Assembly (NCBI GenBank): GCA_022822745.1
Contig: JAJEAO010000032.1
Location: 1-64,000, forward strand
Source of the DNA: Acidobacteriota bacterium
GTDB taxonomy: Bacteria; Acidobacteriota; Vicinamibacteria; Marinacidobacterales; Marinacidobacteraceae
Direction of reading: 5' to 3'
DNA: 64,000 nt
How positions within the stretch are numbered: position 1 is the first letter of the stretch; the number at the start of each line of letters is the position of its first letter. Below the pieces are notes generated by a model. That model made no database searches and was not told the DNA's origin. It worked only from the letters and a program-made list of their open reading frames with translations. Positions 31,260 to 35,295 of this stretch are shown piece by piece. A program made the translations under genes and the position numbers.

Positions 31260-31823
31260 GTGAGGAAAGCTGTCTCCATCCTGTTGCTCGTTGCATTGTC
31301 GGCGGGCCTCGGCCTCGTCGCGGTGGCGTGCTCGAGCGCCCCCCCGCCACCTCCGCCGCCGCCCGAAGAGCCGCCTCCGCCACCGCCGCCGCCGCCACCT
31401 CCTCCGCCGCCACCGCCGCCGCCGCCTCCGACGCCTCCCAGCGAGCGGGATATGTATCTGGATGCGGACATGGCCGAGCTGCAAGGGAACCTCGCGGATG
31501 TCTTCTTCGCCTACGACGAGTCGGAGCTCACCGACGCGTCCCGGGAGTCCCTCCGCATGAACTCGGACTGGCTTCAGCTCCCCTACGTCTCGGCGACGAT
31601 CCAGGTCCAGGGGCACTGCGACGAGCGCGGCACGGTGGAGTACAACCAGGCGCTCGGAGAGCGTCGCGCCCGCGCCGCCTACGACTACCTGACCTCTCTC
31701 GGCGTTCCGGCCTCACGGCTGGAGATGGTCAGCTTCGGCAAGGAGCGCCCCCAGTGCACCGAGAGCGAGGAGAGCTGCTGGCAGCAGAACCGGCGGGCTC
31801 ACTTCCGGATCACCGCCCGCTGA
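31260..31823 (+). CDS. pal: Pal-like OmpA lipoprotein with polyproline stalk
   Basis: 187 residues, GTG start after GGAGGG. Signal peptide with lipobox LVAVACSS (Cys near 24). Residues 27-60 hold thirty prolines interrupted by two Glu and a Thr. The C-terminal OmpA-like domain reads FFAYDESELTD, IQVQGHCDERGTVEYNQALG, RRARAAYDYL and VSFGKERPQC, the standard Pal peptidoglycan-binding motifs. Pal tethers the outer membrane to the cell wall with the Tol system; no tol genes are in the window. The proline stalk is far longer than in E. coli Pal and may span a wide periplasm. Confidence 0.93.
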   Translation: MRKAVSILLLVALSAGLGLVAVACSSAPPPPPPPPEEPPPPPPPPPPPPPPPPPPPPTPPSERDMYLDADMAELQGNLADVFFAYDESELTDASRESLRMNSDWLQLPYVSATIQVQGHCDERGTVEYNQALGERRARAAYDYLTSLGVPASRLEMVSFGKERPQCTESEESCWQQNRRAHFRITAR

Positions 31824-31896: not shown

Positions 31897-33312
31897 TCAG
31901 CGGCGGGCGCCGGCTCGCCGCTTCGGCCGCCGGAGGAGACCGTGCCGCTTCATCTTCTCGTGGAGCGTCGTGGGATTCACCTGGAGCAACTGGGCGGCGC
32001 GCTTCTGGTGCCCCCCGACCCGGCGCAGCGCCCGTTCGATCAGCGTGCGCTCGATGCCCGCAAGCACCTCCCGGAGCGGCTTCGCCTCGCTTCCCGACGC
32101 CACCGGCAGGGGGCTGTCCGGGGGAGTCGCGATCTCGTCCGGCAGGACCGAGCCATCGAAACGGGACACCGCCGCGGTCGCGACAGCCCGCTCGACCCAC
32201 ATCCGCAGCTCGGCCGTGTTTCCCGGCCAGTCGTAGGCGCTGTAGGCCTCGATCGTCGCGCCCGAGACGCCCCACGGCCCGACCCGGGAATCGCGACAGG
32301 AGGCGGACAGGAAGTGGAGGGTGAGAGCCGGGATGTCCTCGCGCCGGGCCCGCAGCGGCGCGATCTGAAGCGAGAAGCCTCCAACCCGGGACCGCGGCGC
32401 CGTCCGCCCGGCTCCGGCTCGGGGGATCCGGGAAACGAGCAGGCGGAACGGGAGGGGACGGCGCAGGGCGTCGCGGAGGATCGCCTGGTCCGGGGGCGCG
32501 AGCTGGTCCGCGCCACTGAGATAGACGCTGCCCGGGCGACCGCGGAGGATCGGCCCCGGAACCCGCGCCTCGCCTGCCGCCCCCGGCTCCCCGGCGGCGC
32601 GACGGAGCGCCGCGAGGATCGTCCCCAGCTCTCCGGCCGGTAGTCCCGGGGCGGCCAGGGGCACGAACGCTTCCGAGGCGCGCCGGGAGAGTCGGTGGAC
32701 CATCTCGGCCGCGAGCCGCCGCCCGGACCCCGGCTCTCCGACGATGCGGACCGGCCCGTCGCCGAATGCCGCGGTCGTGATCGCGCTCCTCACGGCGGCG
32801 GCTTCGGCGGAACAGCCGACCCAGGCTTCGAGCCGGGCCGCGGCGCGCAGCTCCTGACGGAGGATGCGGTTCTCGTGGATCAGATTCCGATAGACGAGAG
32901 CCGAGTCCAGCGCGCTGAGCAGCGCCTCCCGGAGGACCGGGACCGCGATCACGCGCGGGCGGGGCGGAGCGAGATCCTCGAGGGCCGGCCAGTTCGCGCC
33001 GGATCGGGCCATGACCAGAACCGCCGCCTGCGGGCCGACCCGGGCCACCTGCTCGAGCGCCTCGGCGGCGTCGAGTCGGTCGAGCGAACTGGCGTCGAGG
33101 ACGATGACCGAAGCCCCCGTCAGTTCATCTCCGAACTGCCCCCGCGCCGGCCAGGGAGCGAGGACGACCCGCCAGCCGTCCGCTTCCAGGATCCGGGCCG
33201 CCTCCCGGGCCGCCGGTCCCTCGCCGAGGACCGCGATGCGCTCTCCGGCGGCGGATCGGCTCCCGCCCGCAGCCGGAGCGGTCCGCGACGCGGCGGGCAC
33301 CAGAGCGGACAT
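31897..33312 (-). CDS. Degenerate NtrC-like regulator
   Basis: 471 residues built like a sigma-54 activator: an N-terminal receiver-like domain (about 25-135; VIVLDASSLDR), an AAA+ region (about 165-390) and a Fis-type helix-turn-helix (KRAAQLLQVNPTTLHEKMKR near 440) that looks intact. The ATPase is degenerate: Walker A reads VGEPGSGRRLAAEM with Arg for the essential Lys, the GAFTGA sigma-54 contact loop is absent, and the Walker B segment reads GSVYLSGADQL where DE is expected. The second region of homology LREDIP is kept as RREDIPALTLHFL and DWPGNTAEL matches the usual WPGNVREL. I infer a DNA-binding regulator that no longer hydrolyses ATP or activates sigma-54. Confidence 0.8.
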   Translation of the reverse strand: MSALVPAASRTAPAAGGSRSAAGERIAVLGEGPAAREAARILEADGWRVVLAPWPARGQFGDELTGASVIVLDASSLDRLDAAEALEQVARVGPQAAVLVMARSGANWPALEDLAPPRPRVIAVPVLREALLSALDSALVYRNLIHENRILRQELRAAARLEAWVGCSAEAAAVRSAITTAAFGDGPVRIVGEPGSGRRLAAEMVHRLSRRASEAFVPLAAPGLPAGELGTILAALRRAAGEPGAAGEARVPGPILRGRPGSVYLSGADQLAPPDQAILRDALRRPLPFRLLVSRIPRAGAGRTAPRSRVGGFSLQIAPLRARREDIPALTLHFLSASCRDSRVGPWGVSGATIEAYSAYDWPGNTAELRMWVERAVATAAVSRFDGSVLPDEIATPPDSPLPVASGSEAKPLREVLAGIERTLIERALRRVGGHQKRAAQLLQVNPTTLHEKMKRHGLLRRPKRRAGARR

Positions 33313-33505: not shown

Positions 33506-33741
33506 GCGCCACTCCTTCTATGGCGCGTCCCCGTTCTCCCGGTAGGGATTCTCCAGAGCGGCAATTCCCGACGCGAACCCGGCTGCGCCCTCGCAGTGCC
33601 AGTCTGGAGACTGGCCCTCCATACGCGCCACTCCTTCTATGGAGCGCCCCGGTTCTCCCGGTAGGGGTTCTCCAGAGCGGCAATTCCCGACGCGGGCGAG
33701 GCTGCGCCCTCACAGTGCCAGTCCGGAGACTGGCCCTCCAT
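33506..33741. repeat. Two tandem 117-bp copies of a mosaic intergenic repeat
   Basis: Units at 33506-33622 and 33625-33741, around 90 % identical, each containing TTCTCCCGGTAGGG, then TCTCCAGAGCGGCAATTC, and ending in an 18-bp hairpin (GCCAGTCTGGAGACTGGC in unit 1, one base changed in unit 2) and CCTCCAT. Related hairpins lie at 50566 and 58141. The second unit ends three bases from the pdxT stop, so it may act as its transcription terminator. Confidence 0.85.
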
Positions 33742-33744
33742 GCC

Positions 33745-34353
33745 CTACGCGAGGCTGGCGAGGCGCAGGAACCATCGGTGGACGCGCAGATCCTCGGTCA
33801 GCTCCGGATGGAACGTGGTGGCGAGCAGCCGCCCGGACTGGACGAAGACCGGCGCGCCCCGGTGGGAAGCGAGAACTTCCACTCCGGAACCGATCCGCGT
33901 GATCACCGGCGCCCGGATCATCACGACCGGCAGTTCCGGCTCGCCCAGGGCCCGACAGGAGACGGTGGCCGCGTGGCTGTGGACCTGCCGTCCGTAGCCG
34001 TTCCGGCGGACGCCGATATCGAGCAGGCCGAGGGACTTCTGGGAAGGGCCCGAGACCTCCGAGGCGAGGAGGATGGCGCCGGCGCAGGTGCCGTAGAGGG
34101 CGCCGCCGTCGCGATGAAACGCGAGGAGCGGGTCGAACAGATCCTCTTCGAGCAGGAACTTGAGCATGGTCGAGCTCTCGCCGCCGGGGATGATCAGGCC
34201 GTCGAGGCCCTCGAGGGCATCCGCCCGACGCACCTCGACCGCGTGAACCCCGAGTCGCTCGAGGCTCGCGGCGTGGAGCGCGAAGCTGCCCTGGAGCGCG
34301 AGCACCCCGATCCGGACCGTCGGTCCGTCGCGACGAGGCTGTCGTGGCGTCAC
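33745..34353 (-). CDS. pdxT: Pyridoxal 5'-phosphate synthase glutaminase subunit
   Basis: 202 residues, class I glutamine amidotransferase that feeds ammonia to PdxS. Motifs: GVLALQGSFALHAASLERLG at the start, LIIPGGESSTM, catalytic Cys in LYGTCAGAILLAS near 90, and the His/Glu pair in TTFHPELTED near 180. No ATG is suitably placed; GTG 34353 gives a short N-terminal extension before the strand VRIGVLALQG. Follows pdxS on the same strand after 63 bp. Confidence 0.94.
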   Translation of the reverse strand: MTPRQPRRDGPTVRIGVLALQGSFALHAASLERLGVHAVEVRRADALEGLDGLIIPGGESSTMLKFLLEEDLFDPLLAFHRDGGALYGTCAGAILLASEVSGPSQKSLGLLDIGVRRNGYGRQVHSHAATVSCRALGEPELPVVMIRAPVITRIGSGVEVLASHRGAPVFVQSGRLLATTFHPELTEDLRVHRWFLRLASLA

Positions 34354-34416: not shown

Positions 34417-35295
34417 TCAGTTCCCGCGGAGGTGGAGAAGCTGCTCCGGCGGCAGGGAGGCGGTGTCGAGACCGCGCATCGCCTCGCCCAGTCCCATCGA
34501 GATCTCCACGAGCGCCTGCGGATCCTGGTAATGCGTCACCGCCTTCACGATCGCCACGGCGCGAGGGCTGGGATCCGCGGACTTGAAGATCCCGGAGCCC
34601 ACGAAGACGGACTCGGCCCCGAGCTGCATGCAAAGCGAGGCGTCCGCCGGGGTCGCGATCCCGCCGGCGGCGAAGTTGGGCACCGGGAGGCGCCCCTCGC
34701 GGGCCACCCGGCGCACGATCTCGAACGGGGCCCGCAGTTCCTTGGACTCGGCCATCAGCTCGTCGTCGTCCATGAACGAGATCCGCCGGAGCTGGGAGCG
34801 GATCTTCCGCAGGTGGCGGACCGCCTCCACGATGTCGCCGGAGCCGGCTTCTCCCTTGGTGCGGATGAGCGCGGCGCCCTCGCCGATCCGGCGGAGGGCC
34901 TCCCCGAGATTGCGGCAGCCGCACACGAACGGAACCGCGAACGCGTGCTTGTCGATGTGGTTCGCTTCGTCGGCGGGGGTGAGCACCTCGCTCTCGTCCA
35001 CGAAGTCCACTTCCATCGCCTCGAGGATCTGCGCCTCGGCGAAGTGGCCGATGCGCACCTTGGCCATGACGGGAATGTCCACTGCCTCCTGGATCTCGCG
35101 GATCTTCGTCGGCGAGGACATGCGCGCCACGCCGCCGTCGCGCCGGATGTCGGCGGGGACGCGCTCGAGCGCCATGACGCTCACGGCCCCCGCGTCTTCG
35201 GCGATCCTGGCCTGCTCGGCGTTCGTCACATCCATGATGACGCCGCCTTTCAGCATGTCGGCGAGTCCGGTCTTGAGACGGAATTCGGTGCTCAT
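34417..35295 (-). CDS. pdxS: Pyridoxal 5'-phosphate synthase lyase subunit
   Basis: 292 residues. TIM-barrel subunit that makes PLP from ribose 5-phosphate, glyceraldehyde 3-phosphate and ammonia. Highly conserved segments: [58 protein letters not shown] (imine Lys), [15 protein letters not shown] (second Lys) and [14 protein letters not shown]. Starts ATG 35295. With pdxT it gives the DXP-independent vitamin B6 route. Confidence 0.97.

Follow-up and report, generated by a model that had tools for sequence, protein, structure and literature searches.

Can a protein built like an NtrC-family activator still drive sigma54-dependent transcription once the residues of its motor have been replaced, and if not, how might it work instead? 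This question is raised by a gene in the stretch of acidobacterial DNA analysed here (hereafter the window; 64,000 nt). The original prediction placed an NtrC-like regulator devoid of its motor at positions 31897 to 33312, and re-reading of the open reading frame showed that both the coordinates and the minus strand are correct. The protein and its parts are listed below.

31897..33312, minus strand: motor-less NtrC-family regulator, 471 aa (open reading frame, Pfam, alignment)
32938..33243, minus strand: receiver-like (REC) domain, residues 24-125, with Asp73 kept and the acidic pocket, Thr/Ser and Lys lost (model, structure matches, alignment)
33094..33096, minus strand: Asp73, phospho-acceptor position, in 11/11 orthologs (alignment)
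32359..32826, minus strand: pseudo-AAA+ core, residues 163-318 (Pfam, model, structure matches)
32716..32739, minus strand: degenerate Walker A GEPGSGRR, Lys to Arg at 198, residues 192-199 (alignment)
32536..32643, minus strand: segment in place of the GAFTGA (L1) region, about residues 224-259 (alignment)
32512..32523, minus strand: degenerate Walker B YLSG, residues 264-267 (alignment)
32122..32352, minus strand: AAA+ lid, residues 321-397 (Pfam)
32206..32223, minus strand: sensor II GNTAEL, Arg to Ala, residues 364-369 (alignment)
31945..32058, minus strand: Fis-type HTH, residues 419-456, recognition helix NPTTLHEKMKR (Pfam, alignment)

The receiver, AAA+ and Fis-HTH order of the NtrC family was found in the window protein by Pfam, structure modelling and structure matches. 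AAA_lid_14 scored 52.7 bits and HTH_8 45.1 bits, both far over their thresholds; the Sigma54_activat match is weak (27.6 bits for a cut-off of 20.2) and covers profile positions 3-110 of 168. A Pfam match of this kind would label such a protein a sigma54-interacting regulator, which is misleading for its function. For the structure model, 36 family and EBP sequences were aligned; its mean pLDDT is 83.8 and its pTM 0.60, and its top structural matches are EBPs, namely NtrC1, NtrC4, NtrX, PspF, FleQ, LuxO and VpsR. Its AAA+ fold superimposes on those of PspF (2c96, Z 20.2, 2.9 A over 209 residues) and NtrC1 (1ny6, Z 19.9, 2.2 A over 206). The original prediction had allowed that a functional P-loop and sigma54-contact loop might have been misaligned. 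None was seen: the modelled fold fits the AAA+ domain of EBPs well and hence gives no hint of a hidden functional site, the correspondence of residues being taken from the sequence alignment.

We compared the motor residues in 16 proteins of the same clade, 11 orthologs and five receiver-less paralogs, from the window organism's own family (f1) and its sister family (f2). Three losses had been predicted, and the alignment bears them out. The Walker A Lys is Arg at position 198 of the window protein and in 16/16 clade proteins; no GAFTGA lies between Walker A and Walker B, and the loop is missing from all 16; and YLSG stands in the place of the Walker B DE, the Asp being gone from every clade protein and the Glu retained only in the two f2 orthologs. 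The motor loss read from the alignment is even more extensive than claimed, as the sensor I Asn is gone in 16/16 and the sensor II Arg is replaced by Ala in 14 proteins and by Val in two. The arginine-finger segment is not recognizable in the window copy; the second arginine of this segment is present in eight of the nine f1 orthologs and gone from the window copy, the two f2 orthologs and the short paralogs. As the Arg, Walker B Asp, GAFTGA and sensor II changes occur in 11/11 orthologs and 5/5 paralogs, chance or sequencing error does not account for them. Because the motor residues and the sigma54-contact loop are lost across the clade, these proteins are predicted to be incapable of remodelling sigma54 holoenzyme, in agreement with the original prediction. 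The residues that define a sigma54-dependent EBP were sought and are missing, so the window protein should not be an ATP-driven sigma54 activator, and its ATPase activity has presumably been lost. The P-loop glycines and Glu193 are invariant among the 11 orthologs (pocket G-E-x-G-x-G-R), and nucleotide binding may therefore persist with Arg in place of the Walker A Lys. The first P-loop glycine is missing from two of the five short paralogs (AEDGTGRR and AEAGTGRR).

As the control we took 48 further PF00158 hits from the same order or class, 28 best-scoring and 20 low-scoring, with L160 omitted as a member of the clade itself. The Walker B Asp is present in 48/48 of them and the Walker A Lys and sensor II Arg in 47/48 each, with the proviso that rank favours intact proteins among the 28 best-scoring hits, to which a P-loop Lys filter was applied that no locus failed. 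The 20 canonical rows of the alignment had been pre-filtered for the Walker A Lys and sensor II Arg, and for those two residues it is the 48 hits that constitute the control. The Walker B Glu alone is a weak mark, since it is replaced in eight of the 20 low-scoring hits. The 19 class hits ranking next (L019-L037) are canonical EBPs, of which one has GAFTSA. In L020, L034, L037 and L222-L225, all seven, Walker A, Walker B and the sensor II Arg have the canonical form. The sole Walker A Lys exception among the 48 controls is L216, in the f2 genome G012. This protein (L216:814-2037) is a separate degenerate EBP with GELGTGRK, no GAFTGA and a sensor II Arg, and no HTH was seen in it.

The two ends of the protein differ in what they have kept. 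The receiver-like domain resembles the HupR receiver (2vuh, Z 14.8, 2.4 A over 129 residues). Among the residues of a phosphorylated response regulator (acidic pocket, phospho-Asp, Thr/Ser and Lys), only Asp73 is present in 11/11 aligned orthologs; the acidic pair and the Thr/Ser occur in none and the Lys in two, so that the orthologs do not carry the full set. The Fis-type DNA-binding helix is intact, as had been proposed: besides the HTH_8 match, the core TTLHEK of the recognition helix is found in 16/16 clade proteins and NPTTLHEKMKR in 11/11 orthologs. The HTH of the window protein, KPTTLNEMLKRH, is similar to that of a canonical EBP encoded in the same genome (L061:6602-8026), NPTTLHEKMKRH. 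Fis Arg89, which we take to be a base contact, has an aligned position in the HTH of the clade proteins and of the canonical EBP. This position is His in 16/16 clade proteins and Asn in the canonical EBP and four of its close orthologs.

The regulator is an old acidobacterial gene. Orthologs are found in nine of ten f1 genomes, that of the window included, and the contig of the tenth, G007, stops just past pdxS. Two of four f2 genomes have an ortholog, with 39-41% identity. In a third, G012, pdxT and pal adjoin without the gene, and visual inspection of the 763 bp preceding the called start of pal revealed no relic; as the locus is otherwise intact, the regulator is dispensable there. No pdxS was found in the fourth, G013. 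The open reading frame is intact in 11/11 orthologs of the two families. In the phylogeny that the original prediction had called for, orthologs and short paralogs form a single branch with 100/100 support, apart from canonical EBPs, although long branches meet where it joins them; the ortholog tree tracks genera. The short paralogs (L053-L057, in G001, G003, G004, G008 and G009, all of one genus) have no receiver. Four of them follow a gene of 970-1005 aa with a common start sequence and the fifth a shorter frame; in one case, Pfam identified the large neighbour as an outer-membrane barrel with a CarboxypepD_reg domain. The regulator is under purifying selection. In nine f1 ortholog pairs (Nei-Gojobori), dN/dS is 0.12-0.42 for the whole gene and 0.10-0.31 for the dead AAA core, and it is below 1 in every domain; the highest value, 0.69 for the receiver-like domain, comes from the widest pair, where dS is ~1 and dN/dS is accordingly rough. 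A scan of viral contigs gave no relative, and a viral origin was set aside.

The surroundings of the gene are conserved as well. Several of the gene names below are based on sequence reading; Pfam supplied those of korB, EamA and the window's T2SSE-type gene.

33745..34305, minus strand: pdxT-like gene directly upstream, in the same place in 8/8 f1 loci with enough flank (name by sequence reading)
34417..35295, minus strand: pdxS-like gene (name by sequence reading)
31260..31823, plus strand: convergent pal-like lipoprotein gene, convergent in 6/6 f1 loci where the contig reaches (name by sequence reading)

The order korA-like, korB, EamA, pdxS, pdxT, regulator is common to all eight f1 loci with enough flank, and pal is followed by pyrF, pyrD and pyrK in the five whose contig extends that far; the regulator of G001 lies on a 3.2-kb contig and is outside these counts. 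The regulator also directly follows pdxT in two f2 genomes. Three f2 loci have a MocR-type gene before pdxS (Pfam for one of them) and pal downstream on the same strand. In the window, two adjacent copies of a 117-nt repeat, 91% alike, occupy 33506-33741 between the pdxT-like gene and the regulator, and the gap between these genes is 432 bp compared with 57-281 bp in seven other f1 loci. Upstream of pal in G012 (L179:8722-9484), an inverted repeat, GTTGGCGCGAT...ATCGCGCCAAC, was noticed by eye near a sigma70-like promoter.

The relationship of the gene with sigma54 differs between the two families. In f2, TGGCAY-N5-TTGC is found 141 and 133 bp before the starts of the two orthologs. These are the sole strict -24/-12 elements in 52.7 kb, for an expectation of 0.07 and 0.03 per locus. 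A pair TGTAAA-N14-TGTAAA lies 96 and 99 bp further upstream of these promoters; promoter and pair together are at L051:9374-9484 and L052:9313-9426. The pair occurs as an exact match once in each of the two f2 draft genomes of about 7 Mb, and among the seven genomes searched there is one more exact match, elsewhere in the f1 genome G003; it is missing at the regulator locus in the three f1 genomes searched. With up to three mismatches, L051 contains three matches for 0.84 expected, only one of which has fewer than three mismatches. The protein that recognizes the TGTAAA pair could be a canonical EBP acting as the activator of the f2 sigma54 promoter. In contrast, the f1 loci contain no strict sigma54 site in 325 kb for 1.0 expected. 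A sigma54 promoter in the window was also discarded: no site without mismatch was found, and the two one-mismatch sites in 64 kb (2.74 expected) are not near the regulator.

At the genome scale, the consensus YTGGCAYNNNNNTTGCW, with which the two f2 promoters TGGCAY-N5-TTGC disagree at its last base, has 26, 30 and 16 matches in three f2 genomes, with nine each for the reversed-pattern control. Five f1 genomes have 0-1 match each, as does their control; fewer sites are expected in f1 because its DNA is richer in GC. PF00158 matches, which include other AAA+ proteins, number 3-10 per f1 genome against 24-40 per f2 genome. The sigma54 network thus looks much smaller in f1 than in f2, and that the motor-less protein nevertheless persists in f1 argues for a sigma54-independent job.

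The original prediction also proposed a search for rpoN. The MAG of the window gave no significant match (best E 0.046), whereas rpoN is present in 9/9 other f1 genomes and in 4/4 f2 genomes; three f1 copies were inspected, and all have an intact RpoN box. The absence from the MAG is probably an assembly gap, because the usual neighbours of the rpoN block are also missing: a ptsI-like gene gave no match and an accA-like gene only partial matches of 31-33%, both genes being named by sequence reading and searched for without a positive control. A loss of rpoN is unlikely to be the explanation, since the ptsI-like and close accA-like neighbours are missing too. RpoN scores are lower in f1 than in f2.

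How, then, might the protein act? Most probably, in our opinion, it is a conserved NtrC-family regulator that no longer uses ATP to activate sigma54 transcription and works by occupying DNA. The residues for ATP hydrolysis and sigma54 contact are absent and the NtrC architecture is retained; an HTH dimer, probably stabilized via the pseudo-AAA+ fold, would bind a specific predicted operator, and the bound dimer would either block RNA polymerase or help the sigma70 polymerase. We infer the DNA binding, oligomeric state, target and sign of the regulator from these features; as for direction, our best guess is that it represses its own locus, as a local (auto)repressor. A rival reading, that the gene is a decaying pseudogene, might draw on the loss of the motor, the absence of the gene from the intact pdxT-pal locus of G012, the additional loss of the arginine-finger segment in the window copy and the fast evolution of the receiver-like domain (dN/dS as high as 0.69, reached in the widest pair). 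It is already largely refuted by open frames in all 11 orthologs of two families, dN/dS below 1 in every domain of nine pairs, an invariant recognition helix and the retention of a duplicate in five genomes, and we regard it as very improbable.

Two other roles would leave the protein functional. The decoy of true activators suggested in the original prediction could form mixed oligomers with the canonical EBP L061:6602-8026, or compete with it for sites, and so damp sigma54 transcription as a dominant-negative partner. The retained AAA+ fold and lid, the similar recognition helices, the finger-segment arginine of eight of nine f1 orthologs and the consensus sigma54 promoter before the gene in two f2 genomes, such as a feedback damper could have, are all compatible with this role. 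However, the position of Fis Arg89 differs consistently (His versus Asn), the finger arginines are absent from the window copy and from f2, and f1, almost devoid of consensus sigma54 sites, still has the protein. The decoy is weakened, and we consider it improbable; the other two roles in the original prediction, a repressor or a regulator acting with sigma70, stand. Little more probable is a ligand-switched activator of the sigma70 type, akin to VpsR or FleQ, in which the dead P-loop pocket would bind, for instance, c-di-GMP and the protein would recruit the sigma70 polymerase. Such regulators exist (PMC10274813, PMC10723142, PMC5552954), the list of structural matches includes FleQ and VpsR, and the G-E-x-G-x-G-R pocket is invariant in the 11 orthologs and under selection. 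In contrast, two of five short paralogs have lost its first glycine. Regulation by DNA occupancy thus remains our preferred reading, and a clade that is under selection with an NtrC fold but without the motor would be a handle on how AAA+ activators turn into passive DNA binders.

EBP-like proteins with the same sensor II replacement also occur far outside this clade. In public genomes, we retained the best 80 loci ranked by similarity to the motor-less query, a procedure that favours motor-less proteins. Of the 73 loci outside the clade (L074-L146), L085 was dropped as no single open reading frame carried the motif, and one was canonical. There are thus at least 71 EBP-like proteins with a sensor II Ala under 14 phylum labels, mostly from MAGs; this residue is common to all 71 by construction, as one of the scan patterns contains it. 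Among these best loci, a strict expression detects a GAFTGA-like loop in four of the 71, and eight more have near forms (GAFPGA, GAFEGA, GSHTGA, etc.). Walker B retains both Asp and Glu in four, Asp in 12 and Glu in 20, and the Walker A Lys is missing in 26. We computed a tree of 40 rows: three from the clade, 13 canonical proteins and a further 24 drawn from the 80 loci, one of which is itself canonical. None of 200 bootstrap trees unites the 23 sensor-II-Ala rows, and at least three changes are forced, the bootstrap being unsettled; an AU test of all motor-less rows as one clade was not significant (p 0.157). A repeated origin of motor-less proteins is favoured. Tentatively, and with slightly less than even confidence, we propose a joint reading: in f2 the sigma54 network would produce a motor-less member of its own, from a gene under a sigma54 promoter with a private enhancer-like repeat, and the change of the sensor II Arg to Ala (WPGN[VT]AEL), with which GAFTGA and Walker B have mostly been lost as well, marks a widespread, probably repeatedly evolved class of motor-less NtrC-fold regulators acting by DNA occupancy in at least 14 phyla. 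Neither the motor-less clade nor the signature (WPGNVAEL/WPGNTAEL) was found in the open-licence literature among the matches listed. A short signature across phyla would offer a direct route to how AAA+ activators become passive DNA-binding regulators.

Sigma54-independent NtrC-family regulators lack GAFTGA and retain a DNA-binding domain, and the window protein has both features. We hold that it would work like members of this class such as Rhodobacter capsulatus NtrC and VpsR (PMC10274813). In the NtrC proteins of R. capsulatus and Caulobacter, the L1 loop with GAFTGA is deleted, and both reportedly regulate sigma70-type promoters; Caulobacter NtrC keeps and needs Walker A K178 as well as Walker B D235, and R. 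capsulatus NtrC requires ATP binding (PMC10274813). The NtrC architecture and the missing GAFTGA are common to these proteins and to the window clade, but the latter has additionally lost the Walker A Lys, the Walker B Asp, sensor I and sensor II. Vibrio cholerae VpsR, an EBP-like protein without GAFTGA, acts on sigma70 promoters, reportedly with no need for ATP (PMC10274813), and binds c-di-GMP (PMC5552954). XibR was set aside as a GAFTGA-less relative, since it has GAFTGA (PMC5130282).

The structural match of VpsR (7v2b) to the window model (Z 19.9, rmsd 14.9 over 334 residues) is a likeness in fold. Escherichia coli TyrR (L215) is also devoid of the GAFTGA loop, but it keeps the Walker A Lys, Walker B DE, arginine-finger segment and sensor II Arg, none of which is found in the window copy. 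HupR acts on the sigma70 polymerase. Its receiver domain (2vuh) resembles the receiver-like domain of the window protein, and HupR may act without phosphorylation (PMC12194929). Closest at hand, the canonical EBP L061:6602-8026 of the same genome has the same REC-AAA+-HTH order and a similar recognition helix; its motor motifs are intact and its gene adjoins that of a histidine kinase, whereas the window protein has lost these motifs. Sigma54-independent relatives of NtrC are thus already known, and this motor-less clade would be a variant of them.
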